Shown: one piece after another, positions 11,542 through 34,391 of the stretch
How positions within the stretch are numbered: position 1 is the first letter of the stretch
Layout of the letters: each line of letters opens with the position of its first letter
From: a virus
Strand: one strand, 5' to 3'
IMG/VR virus record: IMGVR_UViG_3300033149_006354
Coordinates: 1 to 40,495 of that record
DNA length: 40,495 bases
The notes under the pieces: generated by a model
Told to the model about the DNA's origin: nothing
The model's database searches: none
What the model saw: only the letters and a program-made list of their open reading frames with translations
Position numbers and translations under genes: made by a program

Positions 11542-14244
11542 TCATTGTTTCATAAACCTCCTAAGCAACTTTCTCTCTACAACTAAAGAAATATCAAAAG
11601 ACAAATATGGAGCTATCCTACTCGGTAATGTATCATCAAAAAAATGTATATCGTGCAAAATTGATAATATTTTTTTGTTTACTTTATTTTTCCCCCCACT
11701 AAAAAATACGCTTCTATTCGATAATTTATCGCAAATAATGTTAGCTGTTTTTTCGCCAATTCCTTTAATACAAACCAAAGGCATAAATATTTTATCGTCA
11801 ACAATGCTCCAAAAAAGAGAATTACATGCTCCAATCTTTGGCAAAGAAATATCAAATCCAAGCCTAAAAACTTCCTCAAACAATTCGTTTTTATTTGCAT
11901 TAGTGGCAAAAGTTAACAAAGCGCACATAAACTCTAGTGGATAATAAACCTTCAACCACATTCCATAATAACTCAAAAAAGTATACGCAAATGCATGAGA
12001 TTTATTAAAAGCATATCCACCCCATTTCTTTATTTTCTCCCATAAATCATAAGTCTTTTCTTTAGAAATTCCATTATCAATACAACCTCTAATAAATAAC
12101 TCTTTAAAATCATTTTCTAATTTAGAAAAATCTTGTTTATCAAGCATTTTTCTAATTTTATCGCAATCTGATAAAGGCAAGTTAGATAAAGCATGAATAG
12201 ATTGCATAATTTGCTCTTGAAAAATAATAATACCAAAAGTACTCTTTAAAATTTTTTCCAAATATGGATGATCATACTTAATTTCTTTCCTACCTTTCTT
12301 CCTTTTAATAAACTCATCAACTAATCCAGATTGTAAAGGGGCAGGTCTATATAATGCAGTTAAAGTTGCCAATAAATCAAAATTATCAACCTTAATTCTT
12401 TTTACCAATTCACTAAGACCTTTGGTTCCAAACTGAAAAATACCAACACAATTACCTTTGCTAAATTCACGATAAATTTTTGGATCGTCTAAAGGAATAT
12501 CTTCAAACCTAATCTCAATATTATGTCTTTCTTTTATTAAATCAAAAGCATAGTGAAAAACAGATAAAGTGCTAAGGCCCAATACATCTAGCTTCAACAT
12601 CCCCATAAACTCAGCGTCTTTCTTATCCCAATTACATACAAAATGATTTCCTCTCTTTACTAAATAAGTTTTACTACCACCAGAAAACGGTTCGTCGCTA
12701 ATAATTAAACCAGCAGCGTGCTGTCCAGCTCCTCTTATTTGCCCCTCAAGTGCAATAGCAATATCAGAAACATCCTTATGCTTTTCATAAAAGTTTCTAC
12801 CAAAATCAGAATTATCAAAAACATCCTTTAAAGAAGCAAAAGTATCAATTGACTTCGTAACATTGTTTAATTCATTAAAATCTATATCAAAAACTCTGCC
12901 AACATCCTTCAAAACCATCCTACTTTTCATCCGCATAAAAGTAGAAATATTTGCTACGTTCTCGTTACCATACTTTTCCTCTAAATGTCTTCTTGCTTTT
13001 TCGCGATATCTATCTTCAATATCAATATCTATATCTGGCAAATCAACTCTATCCTCACTTATAAATCTTTCAAACAACAAATCAAATTTTATAGGATCAA
13101 CTAATGTAATGCCTATCAAATAAGCAACTAAGCATCCATTAACACTACCTCTACCTGGCCCAACAAAAATGTTATTCTTTTTACACCAATTAACCAACTC
13201 CCAAACAATAAGAAAATACTTAACAAAACCAAGCTTCTTTATGAGAGAAAACTCTCTCTTTGCTCTATTTATATACATCTCAATATCACAAACAAAATTT
13301 TTTCTTTTCTTCATTATTCCATCTTTTATAAGTTTCCATAAAAAAACATCAGGTGGTATATCTTCGCGTAATATATCTGGTAAAGAAACCTCCATTTTAG
13401 AAAGAGAACAATTGCATTTATCAGCAACAATTAAAGTATTTCTAATTGCACTAGAAAAAAATGAATAGTCAATGTCAATCTGACCAGATATTTCTTTTTT
13501 AAAGAAGGAAATAAGTTCATTAACTGGCCTCAAATACAAGTCCTTTACAGTAAATTTAAATCTATCTTTATCGTTCCATTTAGCTTTACGTTGTATAGCT
13601 AATAAAACTTCTTGCGCAAGAGAATCCTCTTTATTCACATAATGGCAATCACAAGAAACAATACTCTTTACATTAAATTGTTTTGCCAATTTAAAATTAC
13701 GACAAATTTGTTCAACGCCACCATCCACTTCAAAAAAAGAAGGCATAATTTCAAAATAAAAATCATCCTTATTGTGTTCAATTATTCTCTTAAAAAAATC
13801 AATACCTCCTTCCAAATTTAAAAAACTCAAAGGACAAGCAGACAATATAATTACATCAGTAAGTTGTGACAAAAGAGTTTTATAATCTATTCGTGGTCGA
13901 TAAAAATAACCATCAATATTTGCAATATTTAATAATTTCATTATATTAGAAAATCCTCTTCTATTTTTAGCCAATAAAACAATATGCCCTCTTTTTTCTC
14001 CTTTTTCTTTTATGTTAAGATCCGGAACTATATAAAACTCACAACCAAAAATTGGTTTAATGTCAAAATTATCACATGCTTGTTGCCATTTAACTGCACC
14101 ATCAACATTCCCATGATCTGTAATAGCAATAGCCTTAAACCCTAACTCTTTTGCTCTACTAACATATTGTTGAGCAGAACCAATTCCATCTAAAAGAGAA
14201 AACTCAGTATGCACATGTAAATGCACAAAAGCTTCATTTTTCAT
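11542..14244 (-). CDS. dnaE: DNA polymerase III alpha subunit (DnaE type), short form
   Basis: 900 residues against about 1160 for cellular DnaE. The N-terminal PHP domain keeps its metal motifs: HLHVHTEFSLLDG, AITDHGNVDG, FGCEFYI and SCDCHYV. A PHP exonuclease could therefore supply proofreading, as known for some bacterial DnaE. The palm has GPGRGSVNGCLVAYLIGIT and the catalytic PDIDIDIED. The fingers region and FQEQIMQSIHALSNLPLSDC follow, then IKGIGEKTANIICD (helix-hairpin-helix). The C-terminal OB/tau-binding part is cut short. Base composition is AT-rich, like its upstream neighbours. It is the last gene of the AT-rich operon and probably the phage replicase able to use modified dNTPs. 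Confidence 0.92.
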   Translation of the reverse strand: MKNEAFVHLHVHTEFSLLDGIGSAQQYVSRAKELGFKAIAITDHGNVDGAVKWQQACDNFDIKPIFGCEFYIVPDLNIKEKGEKRGHIVLLAKNRRGFSNIMKLLNIANIDGYFYRPRIDYKTLLSQLTDVIILSACPLSFLNLEGGIDFFKRIIEHNKDDFYFEIMPSFFEVDGGVEQICRNFKLAKQFNVKSIVSCDCHYVNKEDSLAQEVLLAIQRKAKWNDKDRFKFTVKDLYLRPVNELISFFKKEISGQIDIDYSFFSSAIRNTLIVADKCNCSLSKMEVSLPDILREDIPPDVFLWKLIKDGIMKKRKNFVCDIEMYINRAKREFSLIKKLGFVKYFLIVWELVNWCKKNNIFVGPGRGSVNGCLVAYLIGITLVDPIKFDLLFERFISEDRVDLPDIDIDIEDRYREKARRHLEEKYGNENVANISTFMRMKSRMVLKDVGRVFDIDFNELNNVTKSIDTFASLKDVFDNSDFGRNFYEKHKDVSDIAIALEGQIRGAGQHAAGLIISDEPFSGGSKTYLVKRGNHFVCNWDKKDAEFMGMLKLDVLGLSTLSVFHYAFDLIKERHNIEIRFEDIPLDDPKIYREFSKGNCVGIFQFGTKGLSELVKRIKVDNFDLLATLTALYRPAPLQSGLVDEFIKRKKGRKEIKYDHPYLEKILKSTFGIIIFQEQIMQSIHALSNLPLSDCDKIRKMLDKQDFSKLENDFKELFIRGCIDNGISKEKTYDLWEKIKKWGGYAFNKSHAFAYTFLSYYGMWLKVYYPLEFMCALLTFATNANKNELFEEVFRLGFDISLPKIGACNSLFWSIVDDKIFMPLVCIKGIGEKTANIICDKLSNRSVFFSGGKNKVNKKILSILHDIHFFDDTLPSRIAPYLSFDISLVVERKLLRRFMKQ

Positions 14245-16089: not shown

Positions 16090-17145
16090 TCACCCTCCTA
16101 AAAAACCTAAAAGTTTGTTAACAAAACAATCAACACTTGTTTCAGGTAATTTCGTTCTCAAATTTGCTTTCTGTTTATAAACTAATTCTCGTCTTCTTTC
16201 GTTGTCAAGTAAATATAAGCATTGTATTTTATCTGCCAGATTAACGTCATCGGCTACCCACCAATCTCCATACAAATCACTTATAACAAACTCTTCAGGA
16301 ATAAAAGCTGGAGTATTGCATGCAAGAGATTCAAAAAAGCGAGGAGTAATTAATCCATATTTACAATATTTTTCTTTAAGAATATGAGTAACACATATAG
16401 ATCTATTTATTTCTAACATGCCATCTAAGAATTTATTGCGTTTGTTAAACGTTATAAATTTAGAATATTCTTTTACTCTCTTTTCTTGTTCTGGTCTTTC
16501 TGGCGAAAAATTAAGCCAATTGCCCCAAAATTTTATTTCTATATTGTTCTTTTTGAGAAAAGGAGCAATACTATAATAGTATTTAGTAACTCCCCAATAA
16601 CGTTCATAATTACTGCCAATATATACATATTGAGGCAAAATATTATCGCAGCAATCAAACAATTCAAGACCATAATCAGTAAAATATAACAATGACCTAA
16701 AATTTTCTCTTGTAGGTATTATTGTTGGCTCAGTCCAAATCACAAATGAATCTAATTTTAAAATGTCATCATTATTAACCATTAAATCTGTATCCCAAAT
16801 AACAATTGGGACCCTACCAGCATAATAAGATAATATTTGCCACTGTCTATCTAAATCAGGCTCATAATATTCTTTCTTATGTAATGGATGTTTAACGTCA
16901 TTTTTATATGTCGACCATCGCCATTCAACAAATAAAGCGTCTAACTTAGGATAATCATCTCTAAAAATAAGAAAATCAATTGGTTTTTCTTCTCTTCTCT
17001 TTTGTAAACATATTATCTCTATTCCTCTCCTTCTCAATTCTTTTACAAATATTGGTCTTGTAAATCTCCCGCCATCCGGTGTCTCTATAACATTACTATC
17101 TTCATATTCAGAACAAAATCCCCAGTATGAAAACCCAAGCTTCAT
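16090..17145 (-). CDS. GT-B-like glycosyltransferase
   Basis: 351 residues with GGGGGTGAACC before the ATG. The N-terminal Rossmann-like half (LDALFVEWRWSTYK, RVPIVIWDTDLM) and a C-terminal donor-binding half are of GT4/CgeB-like shape. The latter has YVYIGSNYERYWGV, IKFWGNWLNFSPERPEQE and especially LITPRFFESLACNTPAFIPE. Expected reaction is transfer of a sugar from an NDP-sugar. The cluster supplies sugar-nucleotide enzymes and a base hydroxymethylase, so modified DNA is a plausible acceptor; a protein or cell-surface acceptor cannot be excluded. No relationship to T4 alpha- or beta-glucosyltransferase is apparent by eye. Confidence 0.7.
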   Translation of the reverse strand: MKLGFSYWGFCSEYEDSNVIETPDGGRFTRPIFVKELRRRGIEIICLQKRREEKPIDFLIFRDDYPKLDALFVEWRWSTYKNDVKHPLHKKEYYEPDLDRQWQILSYYAGRVPIVIWDTDLMVNNDDILKLDSFVIWTEPTIIPTRENFRSLLYFTDYGLELFDCCDNILPQYVYIGSNYERYWGVTKYYYSIAPFLKKNNIEIKFWGNWLNFSPERPEQEKRVKEYSKFITFNKRNKFLDGMLEINRSICVTHILKEKYCKYGLITPRFFESLACNTPAFIPEEFVISDLYGDWWVADDVNLADKIQCLYLLDNERRRELVYKQKANLRTKLPETSVDCFVNKLLGFLGG

Positions 17146-18386
17146 GGTTCACCCCCCCTTAAAGAAAAATACCCATCAAAATTGATCATATTAGACAAAT
17201 ATTTCTCCCTTTCAGTCTCATCCAGGGTGTCCCACCATATTGTTCCCGGTAAAGGTATACATTTTGATTCTTGTTTTGACTGAGCTCCTACTTCTTCAAA
17301 AAAATTCTTTGTTTCCTTAACTGCTTCCTCGGTCTCGCCAGGCACACCATAAGTAAACGTTAAATGAACATAAACGCCCCTTTTTACCAACATCTTTATT
17401 CGTTCTTTTGCTTCAATTATATCAAGTTTCTTGCCAATTGATTGTAAAACGTTTTTATTTGCTGATTCTATTCCAACATTAACGCTATATAAACCATTGT
17501 CTATCAATTTAATCCATCCATCTTCTGAAATCGTATCAATCCTACACATAGCAGACCATAATAATCCATATTTTTTTAGAATTTTTGATATTTCAATAGT
17601 TCTATCTTCATTCAAATTAAAAGTATCATCATCAAAATATATGAATATATCGTCACCATATCTATTAACAAGATATTTCACTTCATTTTCAATATTTTCA
17701 ATGCTACGAAATTTGACTTTATCTCTATACATAACTCTTGGCCATTGGCAAAAAATGCAATTAAATGGACATCCTCTAGACGTTAACATTGAAATTTGAA
17801 ACGGCATCATATCATGAGTTCGTTCTCTATACAACCAAATATTATCGTCTCTATATGGAAAAGGCAAATCATCTAAGTTAAACTCTCTAGACTCATAAAT
17901 TCCACGAACACAACCAGAGTTAAAAAAATCAAGCAAAGAAAATTCATATTGCCCAATAAAAATCGCATAAATAGATTCTATCTTCAACAACTCTTTATAA
18001 AAAACTGATGCATGCGCGCCACCAACTAAAACCTTTATGCCAAGTGAATGTAGCTCATTTATCAAAAAAATATCATTCTCTATTGATGGAGTAGTCATTT
18101 CAAAAAATAAATAATCAGGAGCAATGCTTTTAACTTTCTCAAAAAATAAAGTATAAGTATCGCCCAATGTAATGGAATCAAGCCAATGAACGTCAATATT
18201 ATTTTTCTCAAGAACTGAATACGCATAAGCAAGCCAAAATGGAAATGGCCTATAACGATTAATATAATCTTTTCTAAAATGTACAGAAAATGGCCATCTG
18301 CTTCCGCTTCTAATGCCAAACCAAAACTTTCCATGCTTATCTTTATAATACCATGGTGGGTTTGCTACAATTATTTTCTTAGCCAT
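17142..18386 (-). CDS. B12-binding-type radical SAM enzyme
   Basis: 414 residues. The radical SAM cluster motif CxxxCxxC is C206-P-F-N-C210-I-F-C213, preceded by SMLTSRG. DDDTFNLNEDR, SVNVGIESANKNVL and TFTYGVPGETEE match the SAM and substrate motifs of the BchE/HpnP-like class with an N-terminal cobalamin domain. Residues 1-190 form that Rossmann-like domain (IDVHWLDS, IKVLVGGAHAS). Such enzymes typically methylate or rearrange unreactive carbons. Overlap of 4 nt with the glycosyltransferase and 16 nt with the kinase ties it to the modification pathway. The substrate may be the sugar nucleotide or the base; sequence does not decide. Confidence 0.82.
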   Translation of the reverse strand: MAKKIIVANPPWYYKDKHGKFWFGIRSGSRWPFSVHFRKDYINRYRPFPFWLAYAYSVLEKNNIDVHWLDSITLGDTYTLFFEKVKSIAPDYLFFEMTTPSIENDIFLINELHSLGIKVLVGGAHASVFYKELLKIESIYAIFIGQYEFSLLDFFNSGCVRGIYESREFNLDDLPFPYRDDNIWLYRERTHDMMPFQISMLTSRGCPFNCIFCQWPRVMYRDKVKFRSIENIENEVKYLVNRYGDDIFIYFDDDTFNLNEDRTIEISKILKKYGLLWSAMCRIDTISEDGWIKLIDNGLYSVNVGIESANKNVLQSIGKKLDIIEAKERIKMLVKRGVYVHLTFTYGVPGETEEAVKETKNFFEEVGAQSKQESKCIPLPGTIWWDTLDETEREKYLSNMINFDGYFSLRGGEP

Positions 18387-18883
18387 CTTATAATCTCCTC
18401 AATTTGATCATCAATATTTTCATTTGTAGTATTAAGCTTCAATAACTTGCATTTAGTTTGATTTGCAAACTCAAAATATGCTTTTTGTATTCGCTCTATA
18501 TTTTCGAATTCAATTATTACATCAAAATAATTGCTAAAATTATCTTTATAGCACAAAATAATTTGAGCATTAATTTGTGAAAATAATTCATCAATGTTAT
18601 ATAACCTGGCAAAAAAATCATCATCATATTTTCTATAAAGCGAAGAATAAACAATATCAGAAGGATAAGCTCTGTCAAAAATAACAGAATATTTGGTCTG
18701 CTTCAAGAATTCGTATATATATAACTGATCAAGCCATCTATACTTAGAAATATCCTCATTATTAAAAAATTGTAATTCAGTCGTATTTTTAAAATATGGT
18801 ATTTTCAATGTTGTGCTGAGTTTTTTCGATATACTTGTTTTGCCAGTGTAATCTGCTCCTTCAAATATTAATATCATCTGCAT
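18371..18883 (-). CDS. Deoxynucleoside monophosphate / thymidylate kinase-like protein
   Basis: 170 residues. P-loop GADYTGKT (9-16) after ILIFE, the acidic-aromatic motif VIFDRAYPSDIVYS (DR-x-Y-P-S as in thymidylate-kinase-like enzymes) and a C-terminal helical tail. The protein is shorter than TMK (about 205-210), and a lid segment is hard to place. In this context it is a candidate for phosphorylating hydroxymethyl-dCMP, the role T4 gp1 plays, or dTMP. Nucleoside kinase is the main alternative. Overlaps both neighbours. Confidence 0.72.
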   Translation of the reverse strand: MQMILIFEGADYTGKTSISKKLSTTLKIPYFKNTTELQFFNNEDISKYRWLDQLYIYEFLKQTKYSVIFDRAYPSDIVYSSLYRKYDDDFFARLYNIDELFSQINAQIILCYKDNFSNYFDVIIEFENIERIQKAYFEFANQTKCKLLKLNTTNENIDDQIEEIIRWLRK

Positions 18884-19580
18884 AATCTTCCCATGTCTTC
18901 TTGCTATAAATATAATATGAAGGATGTTTCATTTTTACAAAATTATTTATACCAATTTTAGGCAAAAAGTTCGCAACTTTGTTACCTAAAGCAATAATTT
19001 TCTCAGGCCTCAACAACCTCAGCTCTACAAAAATAAAATTAGCACAATAAAAATATTGATCATCATTAACTGCTTTATTGTCTTTAAATGCGCATTTCAT
19101 TATATTAGTAAACCAACTGTCAATATACAATCTTTTTTTTATTAAAGCTTTTCTAAGCATTAAACTACTTGGCCCATATGACATAACCCGCTCTAATGGC
19201 CTTTTGCCATCAGCGACAGCTGGCGCCTCTCCAATAAACATATATTTCGGTTTTAAATTTCCAACGGGCATCGCCCGTCTGAAAACAATATTATCTACAT
19301 TTTTACATCGCTTACATTTTCTCTTATGCCACAGTTTTTCAATTAATCGCACTACATCAATGTTATGTTTCAAATTAACAAATGCAAACGAACTAAATTT
19401 AACGAAATCAGTATCGTTTTCACCATAAATAATTACTCTTCTAAAATTTTTCAACAATAATTCGTCTTCAAATTTTCGAAATCTATTATTGCGTATTGGC
19501 GACGACAATTTACCGCCCGCGCTATTAAACAGTTTCAATAGTTTATCTTTCTCTTGTTGACTAGTATTTGTTATTCTCAT
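18861..19580 (-). CDS. Divergent uracil-DNA glycosylase superfamily protein
   Basis: 239 residues. CKRC (about 92-95) could be half of the 4Fe-4S ligand set of family 4/5 UDGs. Motif A appears as YMFIGEAPAVADGKRPLERV, where classical enzymes have GEAPG followed by an ED pair. The central motif is TNIMKCAFKDNK (usual form TN-x-x-KC-x-P), and the C-terminal motif is VKMKHPSYY, carrying the HPS histidine. The first-motif changes may alter catalysis or base preference. In a base-modification operon it might remove wrong bases (uracil) from phage DNA or act on a modified base. Confidence 0.72.
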   Translation of the reverse strand: MRITNTSQQEKDKLLKLFNSAGGKLSSPIRNNRFRKFEDELLLKNFRRVIIYGENDTDFVKFSSFAFVNLKHNIDVVRLIEKLWHKRKCKRCKNVDNIVFRRAMPVGNLKPKYMFIGEAPAVADGKRPLERVMSYGPSSLMLRKALIKKRLYIDSWFTNIMKCAFKDNKAVNDDQYFYCANFIFVELRLLRPEKIIALGNKVANFLPKIGINNFVKMKHPSYYIYSKKTWEDYADDINI

Positions 19581-20545
19581 TTCTTCATCAATTTATCAAT
19601 ATACCAAGGAATTATATTATCAAGAGCTTTATCCAAGCTTATTTTTGCTTGAAAACCTAATACTCTCCTAGCTTTACTAACATCAGGTATTCTAACTTTC
19701 ACATCGCACGCCAAAGAATCAACATGCCTAATATCAGTTAAATCACTATTATTTATTTTCTTCCAAATGATTTTGGCCAAATCAATTATTCTGGTTCCTA
19801 CGTTATTTGCTAGATTAAACGACTCATTTAAAGCTTTCTCGTTTTCAATAGATAAAACAATGCCTTCAGCTAAATCTTCACAAGCAGTAAAATGTCTTAT
19901 TTGTTCACCATTGCCAAAAATTTCAAATGGCTGTTGTTTATAATAAGCTTTTCGAATAAAATCAGGAACAACATGACAACTGTCTTCAACAAAATCAAAT
20001 TCACCAATGCCTATAGCATTAAAAGGAACAATAATTGTATATGGTAAACCATACTGTTCATATGCTCCTTGACAAAAATAATGTACTGCCAATTTCTGGA
20101 AACCATATGTAGACATCGGCGGAGAAATTATTTTCTCATCTCCCTCTTTAGAAGGAAAAGCAGTCGCTTTTTCATAAATCATTGAAGAAGAAAGAACAGT
20201 TATTTTCTTTAATTTAAAATTTTTAAATGCAAAAATAGCAGCATCAAAAGCAGAAGCTAAAATTCGCTCATTTTCTGCTAATAAATCATATGCCAATTTA
20301 TGAAAGTAAAATATTCCTCCTATTTTTGCTGCAAACAACAAAAAATGATCACAATCTTCCAATAAATTAATCAATAACTTAGTATTCTTAACGTCATCAT
20401 TAATAAATGTATAATCCAATTTTCTCAATCGTTGCCCATACTTAGACAAATTATCAATGCCTATAACCTCATGACCCTGATTTAATAGCTCTTCAACGAC
20501 ATACGAGCCAATAAAACCTTCTGATCCAGCAACTAATATTTTCAT
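19577..20545 (-). CDS. Extended SDR NAD-dependent epimerase/decarboxylase-like
   Basis: 322 residues. GSEGFIGSY (7-15) is the NAD-binding GxxGxxG, followed by IDNLSKYG and a SSSMIYE serine. The catalytic YGFQK (YxxxK, about 146-150) and GNGEQIRHFTACEDLAEGI, matching the sugar-binding region of UDP-sugar epimerases, come after. This group includes UDP-glucose 4-epimerase, UDP-glucuronate decarboxylase and GDP-fucose synthase; exact chemistry cannot be read. The adjacent sugar-nucleotide 6-dehydrogenase makes UDP-glucuronate decarboxylation or epimerisation attractive. Confidence 0.82.
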   Translation of the reverse strand: MKILVAGSEGFIGSYVVEELLNQGHEVIGIDNLSKYGQRLRKLDYTFINDDVKNTKLLINLLEDCDHFLLFAAKIGGIFYFHKLAYDLLAENERILASAFDAAIFAFKNFKLKKITVLSSSMIYEKATAFPSKEGDEKIISPPMSTYGFQKLAVHYFCQGAYEQYGLPYTIIVPFNAIGIGEFDFVEDSCHVVPDFIRKAYYKQQPFEIFGNGEQIRHFTACEDLAEGIVLSIENEKALNESFNLANNVGTRIIDLAKIIWKKINNSDLTDIRHVDSLACDVKVRIPDVSKARRVLGFQAKISLDKALDNIIPWYIDKLMKK

Positions 20546-21339
20546 TTTCTCATCCCTCTAGGAACAGTAATTGAAAATTTCTTATTTCTTTTCACCAAAA
20601 ATTCAAAAATATTATCAGAATCATAAATCTCAGAAAATAATTTCGCTATTGCATATGTGTCCTTAGGTAAACACGGGCCACCAGCACCTCTCCACTTATC
20701 CGAACAATCAAGGTAATATTTATTTGTAGAAAGTCTATGATTACATACTGTGTTTTTTATTTTTGTGTAATCAACGCCAAAATATTTACACAAATCAAAA
20801 AATTCATTAGCAAAAATAATTCTAAGCATATTAAATGTATTATGAAAATACTTCACTAGCTCTGCCTCTGTTGCAGAATAAAAACGAATTACCTTCCTTG
20901 GAAAAAAACCATGAACAGAAACAATTTTTTCAAAAAAAGCATCGTTTTTTGTTCCTATAACCAATATATCATGATTTTCGCAAAAATCACTAATTGCGCA
21001 CCTCTCACGCAAAAATTCTGGACAAAACGCCAAATCAATTCCATATTTCCTTGATAATCTCTCAGTAGTCCCAGGCAAGACAGTAGACTTTATAACGAGA
21101 ATTCCTTTATATTCAGCATCACAAAATTTTTTAACAACTCCTTCGACTATAGAAGTATCACACCCCTTCGCCGTCGAAGGAGTTGGAACGCAAATAAAAG
21201 CTATTTCCGTTGTTAAAACATCTTCAAATTTAACGTTTTCATATTTTATATCAAACCCAATTACATCGTGACCCAACTTACTAAAGCCGAAAGATAAAGC
21301 GGACCCAACTACACCTAATCCAATTATTCCAACCTTCAT
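20542..21339 (-). CDS. UDP-glucose/GDP-mannose 6-dehydrogenase-like, shortened
   Basis: 265 residues from MKVGIIGLGVVGSALSFG, preceded by GGAGGAATAAG. The NAD domain (GLGVVG), FICVPTPS, VIKSTVLPGTTE, FCPEFLRE, the dimer/catalytic helix AELVKYFHNTFNMLRIIFAN, and the thiol motif GAGGPCLPKDT with catalytic Cys are all present. Family members have about 390-450 residues; here the protein stops soon after the catalytic Cys and lacks the C-terminal UDP-sugar-binding domain. It may be a minimal enzyme or use a partner. Expected product is an NDP-hexuronate for the neighbouring SDR. Confidence 0.82.
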   Translation of the reverse strand: MKVGIIGLGVVGSALSFGFSKLGHDVIGFDIKYENVKFEDVLTTEIAFICVPTPSTAKGCDTSIVEGVVKKFCDAEYKGILVIKSTVLPGTTERLSRKYGIDLAFCPEFLRERCAISDFCENHDILVIGTKNDAFFEKIVSVHGFFPRKVIRFYSATEAELVKYFHNTFNMLRIIFANEFFDLCKYFGVDYTKIKNTVCNHRLSTNKYYLDCSDKWRGAGGPCLPKDTYAIAKLFSEIYDSDNIFEFLVKRNKKFSITVPRGMRK

Positions 21340-21340
21340 C

Positions 21341-21829
21341 TTATTCCTCCGCAAAAATTCTTTTATAATCAGATTTTATCCAGCTTTTATGATTCTTATA
21401 TTTTTCCAACAACTCTTTGTCTTCAAGAAGTTCATTGAGAGTTAATCCAGAATTTGCTTTTTCATAAAGCATATGAGGTCTGGAACCCTTCCTAAACTTC
21501 ATTTTTTTCTCACCACTTTTCTTATCCTCATTTTTACTATCTTTAGTATCAGAAACTTCTGATTTTTCATTAACTTGCTTCGTTTTTTCGTTTTCAATTT
21601 CTTCCATATCTACTAATGCGTTATAAACTTCAACTACGATATCGGGAAGTTCGTCCTCCTTCTCTTCAGGAATCAATTCAACAGCTTCCATAAATCGTTG
21701 TTTCAGAACATCAAATCTCTGTATCGGGTTAAGTTTTTTGTCAAGAATACCTTGCCAAACCTTCGACTGGTTAAACTCCTTCACCGCCTCCCTCAATACA
21801 TTAAGATCAACTTTTTTCAATTCTTCCAT
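21341..21829 (-). CDS. Hypothetical protein opening the AT-rich operon
   Basis: 162 residues starting MEELKKVDLNVLREAVKEFN at the ATG behind AGGAGGGC. The N-terminal helical part (LNPIQRFDVLKQRFMEAVEL) is joined by a long Lys/Glu/Ser linker to a C-terminal module (SRPHMLYEKANSGLTLNELL then EDKELLEKYKNHKSWIKSDY). The C-terminal part looks like a small helical DNA- or protein-binding domain. It is AT-rich like the nine genes behind it and follows directly after a promoter-like stretch. No function recognised. Confidence 0.55.
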   Translation of the reverse strand: MEELKKVDLNVLREAVKEFNQSKVWQGILDKKLNPIQRFDVLKQRFMEAVELIPEEKEDELPDIVVEVYNALVDMEEIENEKTKQVNEKSEVSDTKDSKNEDKKSGEKKMKFRKGSRPHMLYEKANSGLTLNELLEDKELLEKYKNHKSWIKSDYKRIFAEE

Positions 21830-23439: not shown

Positions 23440-24912
<1,473 letters not shown>

Positions 24913-31768: not shown

Positions 31769-31966
31769 CTAAAATTCAACACCAAATATTTCACAATACT
31801 GCTCCTGTAACTTATAGAAGCTGCATGTGTTGCAATCGTCTTGACACAGGAGACAGTATGCCTCTTGTTGTTCGGCCCACTTGTCCATCAGGTAAAAGTA
31901 GTCCCTGATGGACTTTTGGACCCTGTGCTGCCAATGCTTTATTTGACGTTCTGTTAAGAGCTCCAT
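31769..31966 (-). CDS. Cysteine-containing small protein downstream of a hammerhead ribozyme
   Basis: 65 residues with AAAGGAGGCGAGAG before the ATG. The helical N-terminus (LTERQIKHWQHRVQKSIRDY) is followed by CLLCQDDCNTC, four Cys within 11 residues, and a later single Cys. Metal binding is likely. Its mRNA 5' end would be set by hammerhead cleavage at 32027/32026, about 60 nt before the start codon. It stops in TAG. Confidence 0.5.
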   Translation of the reverse strand: MELLTERQIKHWQHRVQKSIRDYFYLMDKWAEQQEAYCLLCQDDCNTCSFYKLQEQYCEIFGVEF

Positions 31967-31993: not shown

Positions 31994-32061
31994 GCCTCAT
32001 CAGTAGACAGGTTCCCGTCCTGTCCAGACTCCCGAGAGCTTATGCCCCCGGGAGTTTCGGC
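31994..32061 (-). ncRNA. Hammerhead ribozyme, type II (copy 1)
   Basis: On the minus strand all core elements are present. The 3' strand of stem II GCC (32061-32059) runs into GAAA (32058-32055). Stem III is 12 bp (including G-U pairs) with an AUAA loop, arms 32055-32044 and 32039-32028. Then come the cleavage triplet GUC (32029-32027) and stem I UGGACAGG/CCUGUCUA (32026-32019 with 32011-32004) with a 7-nt loop, CUGAUGA (32003-31997) and GGC (31996-31994) closing stem II. A15.1-U16.1 and C17 are as in the consensus. Stem II is open to flanking RNA, hence type II. Cleavage falls after 32027. Confidence 0.88.
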
Positions 32062-32097: not shown

Positions 32098-32280
32098 TTA
32101 CCAAGTAAGTTGGCGGAGCCCTTTTACCCTGATCCACATCTCGTTGATTTCTGGTGTCGTAGACCAGGGATCAACATTGAGGAGATGTTGTAAAGCTTTC
32201 TGTGGAGTGTCAAACGTACCAAGCGACACCCCTGAACCTCCTACATCATTTATTATTCCTTCTACATAAAATATTGTCAT
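32098..32280 (-). CDS. Small hypothetical protein
   Basis: 60 residues with GGGGGGAGGAG before the ATG; overlaps the upstream gene by 35 nt in another frame. Sequence MTIFYVEGIINDVGGSGVSL then GTFDTPQKALQHLLNV suggests a small alpha/beta domain. It ends 37 nt before the stem II end of the first hammerhead ribozyme. Not recognised. Confidence 0.5.
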   Translation of the reverse strand: MTIFYVEGIINDVGGSGVSLGTFDTPQKALQHLLNVDPWSTTPEINEMWIRVKGLRQLTW

Positions 32281-32659
32281 GATCTCCTCCCCCCTTTCTA
32301 ATCGGCTTAAAGGTTATCCGTCCCCAAGGATCGCTGAAGGTTTTAATATGGTCTGATAACTCCTTCTTGAGATCCTTATTCACAGCAGTCATGTTTGGTC
32401 TCATATATTTCGGCACCTGCTCCAGCCTGTTATTGTTCCAGAGATAGTAGAAGAGATCTCCAGCATCAAGCTCTGTTCTGGTATAGGTGCCAAAGTCTGC
32501 TACAAACCTATGACCTTGAAGAACTCCCACCTCCTTTATTATGGCCATTTTCTTGAGTTCGTCTTTGAGCTGCCTTAGTTCTTCTTGTAACTCCTTAATC
32601 ATGAGATCGAGCTCAGCAGCTCGATCAACCTTTTGTTTGTAACCATTACCCTTAGCCAT
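32246..32659 (-). CDS. Hypothetical protein with N-terminal coiled coil
   Basis: 137 residues. Residues about 10-40 form a charged coiled coil (AELDLMIKELQEELRQLKDE). The remainder (FVADFGTYTRTELDAGDLFY then YLWNNNRLEQVPKYMRPN) looks globular. AAAGGAGG precedes the ATG. The layout resembles small DNA-mimic or Gam-like phage proteins only superficially. Function unknown. Confidence 0.5.
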   Translation of the reverse strand: MAKGNGYKQKVDRAAELDLMIKELQEELRQLKDELKKMAIIKEVGVLQGHRFVADFGTYTRTELDAGDLFYYLWNNNRLEQVPKYMRPNMTAVNKDLKKELSDHIKTFSDPWGRITFKPIRKGGGDHDNILCRRNNK

Positions 32660-32673
32660 GTTAGTCCTCCTTT

Positions 32674-33309
32674 CTAACTAATTTCAGTTAACCTTATGTT
32701 ATCCTTAAGGGCCACTTCTATCATATCCAAGAGTTCTTTCACAGAAGAGAATGTCCCGCCCCAAAACTCACATTGGGCCTCATGCTTCCATAGTTGGATG
32801 GCGTTACTCATAAGACTTGTAGAGTTGTGCCTGGGAGGTGACTGAAGCAGTCCTTCTTTCTTCTCAGCTATGAGCTCCTTCAGTGCTTGTTTGAGAGCCT
32901 CGAGCCAGTTGCTGTTCTCATTACAACAATAACGTATGACCTCATTAATTTCAGATGCTGCTTTATAGCTCTCCTGTTTCTTGACCAGTGATTCGGATAA
33001 CCAATCCAATGTATTGACTGGATCAGATTGGCACCTACTAACGAACTCTTCTTTAGCTTCCTCATAGGCTTTCTTCATCTTGTCGGGCCAGGACAAGATC
33101 TTCTGTTCCCAGAACTCAATGGAACTAACGAGATCTCTCCGTTCCAACTCTATTGAGAGGTTGACCAGCTCCGGATGATGAGACTTCGTTAAATGCTTCT
33201 CAACCGCATTCTTGTGTTTATAGGCTTTGCCGCAGAGGAGGCAGAAGAATCCTTCCTCCCCTTCCGTTGTGTTAGCCTCTATTGCCTTCTTGAAAAACTT
33301 GTCTATCAT
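32674..33309 (-). CDS. C2H2-type zinc-finger protein downstream of a hammerhead ribozyme
   Basis: 211 residues from MIDKFFKKAIEANTTEGEEG, with AAGGAGG 8 nt before the ATG. A longer frame beginning inside the ribozyme core ATG is not credible. FFCLLCGKAYKHKNAVEKHL then TKSHH (about 21-45) is a C2H2 finger, rare outside eukaryotes but known in some phage proteins. The rest is helical (YKAASEINEVIRYCCNENSN, LEALKQALKELIAEK). The hammerhead at 33341-33419 would leave a 5' leader of about 72 nt. It stops in TAG. DNA binding is inferred. Confidence 0.55.
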   Translation of the reverse strand: MIDKFFKKAIEANTTEGEEGFFCLLCGKAYKHKNAVEKHLTKSHHPELVNLSIELERRDLVSSIEFWEQKILSWPDKMKKAYEEAKEEFVSRCQSDPVNTLDWLSESLVKKQESYKAASEINEVIRYCCNENSNWLEALKQALKELIAEKKEGLLQSPPRHNSTSLMSNAIQLWKHEAQCEFWGGTFSSVKELLDMIEVALKDNIRLTEIS

Positions 33310-33790: not shown

Positions 33791-34391
33791 TTCAATCCTC
33801 CTTTCTTTAGGTTAAAGTCAACCCCCTCACTACTGCCCACTGTCTACCACCGATGGGCAGTGTCAAGGAATTGACCATCTAGCCCTTAGGTCTCACCGGC
33901 TGTCTCGGAACCTTCTGCAACGCCAGCTCCTGCCCAACCTCTGGAAGATCCTAGCCTTAAACTTGTCTCACCTCCCTCCTGCTACACCTTCCATCCGGCT
34001 TCCCTGTCCGGCTCCCTTTCCTAATTTTCAATGAGCTAATTAAATTTTGTCCTGGATTATATTATATAAAGTGAGAAAAATAAAATTGCATAAAACCCAA
34101 ATATAGGTGATCAGAGCAGTTTATGAGGCAAAAAGGAAGGAAAAGCTATTATTTTTATAGCTTTTCTTAGATTTTCTTTGATTTTTAGTATGAAAGGGCT
34201 TAACTATTTGAAATGATTGAAAAATTTGACAGGCAGCTAACTATTTGAAATTTTTACGAAAAACAAAAAAATTGAAAAAATTTAAAAATTTTTAGGCTAG
34301 GATACAAAAAAATTCACTCTGGCACCCTAAACTATTGGAATCATTAAATTTATCTCCTAAAAATTCTCCTGGCTATAACCTACTGAAATCA
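33791..34391 (-). other. 601-bp non-coding control region with long leader
   Basis: No plausible gene on either strand. The part 34041-34391 is very AT-rich, with repeats, a hairpin and TATAAT-like strings (minus-strand TTTATATAATATAATCC near 34079-34063). The part 33791-34040 is GC-richer and transcribed as a leader. It contains an 8-bp inverted repeat, ACTGCCCA/TGGGCAGT (33824-33831 with 33845-33852), and repeated CCGGC strings near 34000. It separates the tail/HTH genes from the early operon. Likely jobs are early promoter, operator and perhaps a second origin. Confidence 0.5.
34141..34165 (-). terminator. A/T hairpin terminator candidate
   Basis: Perfect 9-bp inverted repeat AAAAGCTAT/ATAGCTTTT (34141-34149 with 34157-34165), 7-nt loop. 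On the minus strand it is followed by CCTTCCTTTTT. It could end transcripts of the tail and HTH genes before the early promoter. The low GC content makes it a weak terminator. Confidence 0.4.

Follow-up and report, generated by a model that had tools for sequence, protein, structure and literature searches.

Type II hammerhead ribozymes between phage genes: a probable role in segmenting polycistronic mRNA

The virus contig analysed here, a 40,495-base IMG/VR record taken at its full length and referred to below as the window, carries two type II hammerhead ribozymes on its minus strand, at 32061-31994 and 33413-33348, each positioned shortly ahead of a start codon. The role that we consider probable for them, at roughly two chances in three, is segmentation of a polycistronic mRNA between its cistrons by predicted self-cleavage. 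Natural type II hammerheads were described by Perreault et al. in 2011, together with their pseudoknot and their clusters flanking phage genes, and that work proposed processing into shorter mRNAs; its text does not mention stop codons (PMC3088659). A 2017 review still called the role of prokaryotic hammerheads an open question (PMC6155905).

The motif at 32061-31994 is, with near certainty, a type II hammerhead by sequence and structure. It runs on the minus strand from 32061 (5') to 31994 (3'); the coordinates as listed must therefore be reverse-complemented to give the RNA, whose parts follow one another from 32061 in the order GCC GAA, stem III, C17, stem I, CUGAUGA and GGC. Stem II comprises 3 bp, formed by GCC (32061-32059) and GGC (31996-31994), and is followed by the core GAA (32058-32056). 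Stem III (32055-32044 with 32039-32028) is seen in both sequence and folds as 12 bp, including two G-U pairs, closed by an AUAA tetraloop; as an isolated hairpin (32028-32055) it reaches about -20.6 kcal/mol. C17 occupies 32027, within a GUC site, and cleavage is predicted between C 32027 and U 32026. Stem I (32026-32019 with 32011-32004) has 8 bp, one of them G-U, and a 7-nt loop, ACGGGAA; its hairpin alone (32004-32026) reaches about -9.8 kcal/mol. The core CUGAUGA lies at 32003-31997, and a 3'-tail CCCG (31991-31988) is predicted to pair with CGGG in loop I (32017-32014), forming the type II pseudoknot. The first-pass annotation had proposed a type II hammerhead with all its core nucleotides, a 12-bp stem III with a tetraloop, an 8-bp stem I with a 7-nt loop and GUC cleavage after 32027; sequence and folding bear out this structure and the position of the cut, and the motif is complete, non-random and equipped with the pseudoknot of its family. 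The strand, the pseudoknot and the second hammerhead at 33413-33348 (minus) had been overlooked.

The conserved core (C3UGANGA9, G12A13A14, the A15.1-U16.1 pair and H17) is complete in both window copies; CUGAUGA, GAA, the A-U pair and C17 are each found in the sequence and by a structure scanner written for this analysis. Stems I and III are loop-closed and stem II is open-ended, as seen in the fold for the 32061-31994 copy and by the scanner for both. The minimum free energy fold of a 77-nt segment coincides exactly with the hammerhead (-35.9 kcal/mol, z = -5.0), and none of 200 shuffles was as good. The scanner gave scores of 24 (32061-31994) and 18 (33413-33348), and when the entire window was dinucleotide-shuffled 150 times and each shuffle scanned on both strands, it never scored above 13.0; the 32061-31994 match is thus far beyond chance. 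A plus-strand reading was rejected, with an unremarkable fold (z -2.0) and no hammerhead by the scanner. No other Rfam family reached threshold near the hammerhead, and no tRNA genes were found in the window.

The gathering cut-off of the Rfam model RF02276 (Hammerhead_II) is 37 bits, which is a database reporting threshold and not a structural definition. In an Infernal comparison, suggested as a check in the first-pass annotation, the 32061-31994 copy matches the model over its full length at 33.0 bits (E 1.2e-6 in a search of its own record, 3.1e-5 in a 251-nt scan), yet this falls under the cut-off, and a default Rfam scan therefore omits it. It was absent from the Rfam scan at the gathering threshold and from a whole-window scan at E<=1. 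The 33413-33348 copy reaches the gathering score with 37.7 bits (own-record E 6.7e-8), and both copies cover model positions 1-66. Among the matches listed, 13 of the 43 positive viral records hold no copy over the RF02276 cut-off. Self-cleavage of the 32061-31994 copy is predicted with good confidence, in keeping with the activity of 14 of the 18 consensus hammerheads that Perreault et al. assayed; cleavage of three tandem arrangements was also recorded there in vitro, and for one of them in E. coli as well (PMC3088659).

The second copy (5' 33413 to 33348 3', minus) is likewise a type II hammerhead by sequence and structure, an assignment only a little less firm than that of the first. Cleavage is predicted after C 33381, and by complementarity a pseudoknot can form between UAGGC (33371-33367) and GCCUA (33346-33342). 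It is the weaker candidate of the pair, with one mismatch in stem I and one in stem III, and a program without pseudoknots prefers another fold (-28.4 vs -24.7 kcal/mol, a difference of 3.7). The 5' ends of both copies have AAGCCGAAAC(U/G)CCCGGG in common, whereas their stem I and pseudoknot sequences differ with the pairing kept; the two may therefore be old paralogues.

Both hammerheads precede an AAAGGAGG ribosome-binding site. For the 32061-31994 copy, which had been correctly placed just before a start codon in an operon, this Shine-Dalgarno sequence (31981-31974) lies 6 nt beyond the pseudoknot, and the ATG at 31966 lies 27 nt past stem II; the gene (31769-31966, minus) encodes 65 aa with 5 Cys (CLLC, CNTC), and family scans of its product gave no confident match. 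The gene after the second hammerhead (32674-33309, minus) encodes 211 aa with an N-terminal C2H2-like zinc finger, its Shine-Dalgarno sequence at 33325-33318 and its ATG at 33309, 38 nt past stem II; a longer version of this ORF in the mechanical list begins within the ribozyme core. Two further minus-strand genes lie between the hammerheads, one of 137 aa (32246-32659) and one of 60 aa (32098-32280), the latter with its stop 36 nt ahead of stem II. The pair thus has the arrangement of the clusters of Perreault et al., with two same-strand copies in a phage separated by 1,354 nt and three genes. Cleavage at both sites is predicted to release a 1,354-nt RNA (33380-32027, minus) comprising a 5' stem I hairpin, the three genes and a 3' stem III hairpin. 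The two ribozymes do not abut the annotated stops of the genes upstream, which lie at distances of 36 and 80 nt. Extra in-frame stops (TAA and TAG) are found 3 and 2 nt before the respective stems II (32070-32062 and 33418-33414), after the annotated ones. The upstream genes may once have ended at the ribozymes and later been shortened, although with two cases chance is possible.

The molecule that carries the pair looks like an unclassified tailed phage with the hammerheads in an early operon. Its major genes are all on the minus strand, and their products include a tail protein, a DnaB-like helicase, a primase, RecA and a bacterial-type DNA polymerase III alpha subunit. Ahead of the hammerhead-bearing genes is a 601-nt gap (33791-34391, minus), which begins AT-rich and passes into a leader richer in GC that contains a hairpin, CACTGCCCA..TGGGCAGTAGTG, at about 33860-33830; promoter and leader of the operon are a possible reading of this gap. 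Elsewhere on the minus strand, a 490-aa protein at 23440-24912 contains an asparagine run (NNYNNNNNNNNNNN), and the regions 11542-14244 and 16090-21354 contain the phage-encoded polymerase III alpha subunit by Pfam, along with what seem, by eye only, to be radical-SAM, sugar-epimerase and sugar-dehydrogenase-like genes. No DNA relatives of the record were found among 50,697 phages, and no relatives of the zinc-finger protein in the viral contigs searched. In 25 viral records that encode a related helicase no type II hammerhead was present, which makes the element sporadic and dispensable.

The pseudoknot is possible in both window copies with different sequences, CGGG with CCCG and UAGGC with GCCUA, and the same is seen more broadly. 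In 140 dereplicated viral hammerheads among the matches listed, the longest complement between loop I and 3'-tail has a mean of 3.62 nt; exchanging tails between ribozymes lowers this to 2.73 +/- 0.06, and none of 500 swaps was as good as the real pairing. Four or more pairs are found in 67 of the viral relatives among the matches listed, using 57 different sequence pairs. In the constructs of Perreault et al. this pairing sets the speed of cleavage (PMC3088659), and a crystal structure from 2024 is of a fast pseudoknot hammerhead, whose cleavage rate in high salt is 16 per min (PMC11300833).

The placement of type II hammerheads relative to genes was surveyed with the seed pattern GCCGAAAC..GTC..CTGATGAGGC in at least 120 viral and at least 118 genome stretches, giving at least 171 unique viral copies in at least 110 loci and at least 88 genomic copies in at least 68 loci. 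The seed copies all have GCC/GGC as stem II, redundancy among relatives was reduced only at the level of 85% similarity, and gene calls are simple ORFs with Shine-Dalgarno filters. Among the matches listed, an ATG with a Shine-Dalgarno sequence follows within 50 nt for 74% of 160 viral copies, against 11% at random and 4% on the antisense side; an independent genome set gives 72%, against 13% and 5%. Together, about 73% of the matches listed have such a start, compared with 11-13% at random, and the start codon lies a median of 26 nt past the ribozyme. On the other side, 54% of the 189 dereplicated copies among the matches listed have stem II at -3 to +3 nt from an upstream stop codon, as opposed to 5.5% for GCCGAA elsewhere in the loci, 1.6% for GCCG and about 2% for random positions. 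The stop often overlaps stem II, the commonest forms among these matches being TAGCCGA, TAAGCCGA, TAGGCCGA and TGAGCCGA. We did not find this stop-codon rule stated in the later open-access literature, to which the search was confined, subscription papers lying outside it.

Moreover, a single predicted gene separates the two ribozymes in 50 of 85 adjacent pairs among the matches listed, and the median spacing is 517 nt. One gene per interval is also the usual pattern in the long arrays by Rfam, which reach ten copies over about 5 kb and nine over about 6 kb, again among the matches listed. Prophages of Asticcacaulis biprosthecium and Fervidicella metallireducens are examples that carry an array. 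The stem III tetraloop is UNCG or GNRA in 59 of 102 cases among the matches listed, which fits a stable 3' end. Genes downstream are varied and small in the viral loci among the matches listed (median about 104 aa), the largest recurring family accounting for no more than 4 of 125 and a few being anti-restriction proteins. The small Cys-rich gene of the first-pass annotation is aptly described but incidental: among the matches listed, a CxxC is present in just 13% of the genes that follow viral relatives and no family exceeds 4 of 125, and a link to Cys-rich proteins was rejected. Separately, a contig binned as a Lokiarchaeota MAG has four type II hammerheads within 8 kb by the scanner but no Rfam match at E<=0.001; it could be viral or mis-binned.

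Motif, pairing, pseudoknot signal and placement at gene boundaries are thus direct outcomes of computation, and the segmentation reading builds upon them. Each ribozyme would fold co-transcriptionally, aided by the pairing of loop I with the 3'-tail, and a cut after the GUC between two genes would divide the polycistronic RNA into shorter mRNAs. Of the two pieces, the upstream one would retain its stop codon and end with the stem III hairpin and a 2',3'-cyclic phosphate; the downstream one would carry a 5'-OH at its start, followed by the stem I hairpin and, soon after, its own Shine-Dalgarno sequence. Self-cleavage and this end chemistry are known from published work on relatives; cleavage of the two window copies in the infected cell and a benefit in stability are what we infer. 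The original suggestion that the cut sets a new mRNA 5' end agrees with the start-proximal placement, but is one half of the matter, as the cut equally sets the 3' end of the upstream RNA. The likely benefit would be that neighbouring phage genes have the stability and amounts of their mRNAs controlled separately, with no need of a protein nuclease.

The type II arrangement assigns the stem III hairpin to the new 3' end and the stem I hairpin to the new 5' end, while in types I and III, by the same topological reasoning, the hairpins are not divided one per product. Segmentation is favoured because each product carries one hairpin, stem III loops are mostly UNCG or GNRA, and the upstream stop codon is retained. 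It is weakened by the mismatches of the second copy and its predicted misfolding without the pseudoknot, by the sub-threshold Rfam score of the 32061-31994 copy, by window stops at 36 and 80 nt, and by the sporadic, dispensable nature of the element. An mRNA with a 5'-OH is a possible substrate for 5' exonucleases, so the stability benefit is uncertain. Extending the reading, type II hammerheads might be general punctuation of phage operons, standing between a stop codon and the next ribosome-binding site and delimiting hairpin-ended units that are often single genes; we advance this tentatively, at slightly under even odds. Type II would be favoured in that position because it is the only permutation of the three that gives each product one closed hairpin.

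Folding predictions also bear on how the cut might act. The accessibility of the Shine-Dalgarno sequence and start changes by a median of only +0.013 on cleavage, which argues against a riboswitch-like switch that hides the ribosome-binding site. The same near-constancy speaks against an unlikely alternative, in which ribozyme and ribosome race and cleavage is predicted only where ribosomes are absent, so that the ribozyme reports translation and is not a constitutive cutter. The ribozyme does overlap the footprint of a ribosome starting downstream and, in most relatives, of one stopping upstream: among the matches listed the start codon is a median of 26 nt away and the stop usually touches stem II, and 6 nt separate the pseudoknot in the window from the Shine-Dalgarno sequence. 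However, tight spacing is expected anyway in compact phage genomes, the distances to the upstream stops in the window are 36 and 80 nt, and pseudoknot hammerheads cut fast, probably ahead of the arrival of a ribosome.

Only marginally less plausible than such a race, and still improbable, is a selfish or neutral element, able to spread or survive among phage genomes while hardly affecting their genes. Sporadic occurrence, the likeness of copies within some arrays and the mutually unrelated downstream genes would suit it, but placement at stop and start codons, kept pairing and varied pseudoknots suggest selection for a working ribozyme at the site. Rejoining of the ends of the 1,354-nt RNA through a hybrid hammerhead, to give a circular three-gene mRNA, is very improbable. 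Hammerheads are able to ligate, and stem II is GCC/GGC in both window copies, so a hybrid ribozyme could form. Against this, 129 of 176 ribozyme-bearing stretches among the matches listed hold a single copy within the stretch covered, the hybrid stem II would be unpaired in 21 of 27 neighbouring pairs with differing stems II among the matches listed, and Perreault et al. sought circular and spliced products and detected neither (PMC3088659). A chance match without ribozyme activity is scarcely credible: although the 32061-31994 score is under the Rfam cut-off and 4 of 18 consensus hammerheads were inactive in Perreault et al. (PMC3088659), two copies occur in one operon, neither approached by shuffles, with a fold z of -5.0 and a pseudoknot.

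Segmentation remains our preferred reading. If the broader punctuation reading is true, these elements would comprise a protein-free system of mRNA maturation. If phage transcripts are indeed cleaved by them into mRNAs with hairpin ends, inactivating a core should alter mRNA ends, stability and the relative expression of the two flanking genes. The placement rule makes one answer to the role of prokaryotic hammerheads directly testable.

Several known systems resemble the pair to differing degrees. The pistol ribozyme has an overall pseudoknot topology close to that of the pseudoknot hammerhead (PMC11300833), but the core here is that of a hammerhead (CUGAUGA/GAAA), and the window contains no Rfam pistol match. 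HHphage of the haloviruses HF1/HF2 likewise lies just before the start of an early gene, 13 nt away compared with 27 and 38 nt here; it differs in belonging to an archaeal virus and in being a structural variant whose core is altered, and a mapped 5' end supports its cleavage in vivo (PMC3088659). The triple array around ardA in Agrobacterium tumefaciens also flanks small genes, and polycistronic segmentation was proposed for it; that array was cleaved in vitro and in E. coli (PMC3088659), whereas cleavage here is predicted and three unrelated genes lie between two copies. The closest likeness is to Hammerhead_II itself (RF02276; PMC3088659), with which the pair has in common the core, an open stem II, closed stems I and III, the GUC site and the pseudoknot of loop I with the 3'-tail, as well as the phage context and multiple copies placed around a group of small genes. 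It differs in its new sequences, its unclassified phage and the sub-threshold 32061-31994 copy, whose 12-bp stem III is longer than in most relatives. The ribozyme pair adds to the class described in 2011, and the placement rule is the added part.
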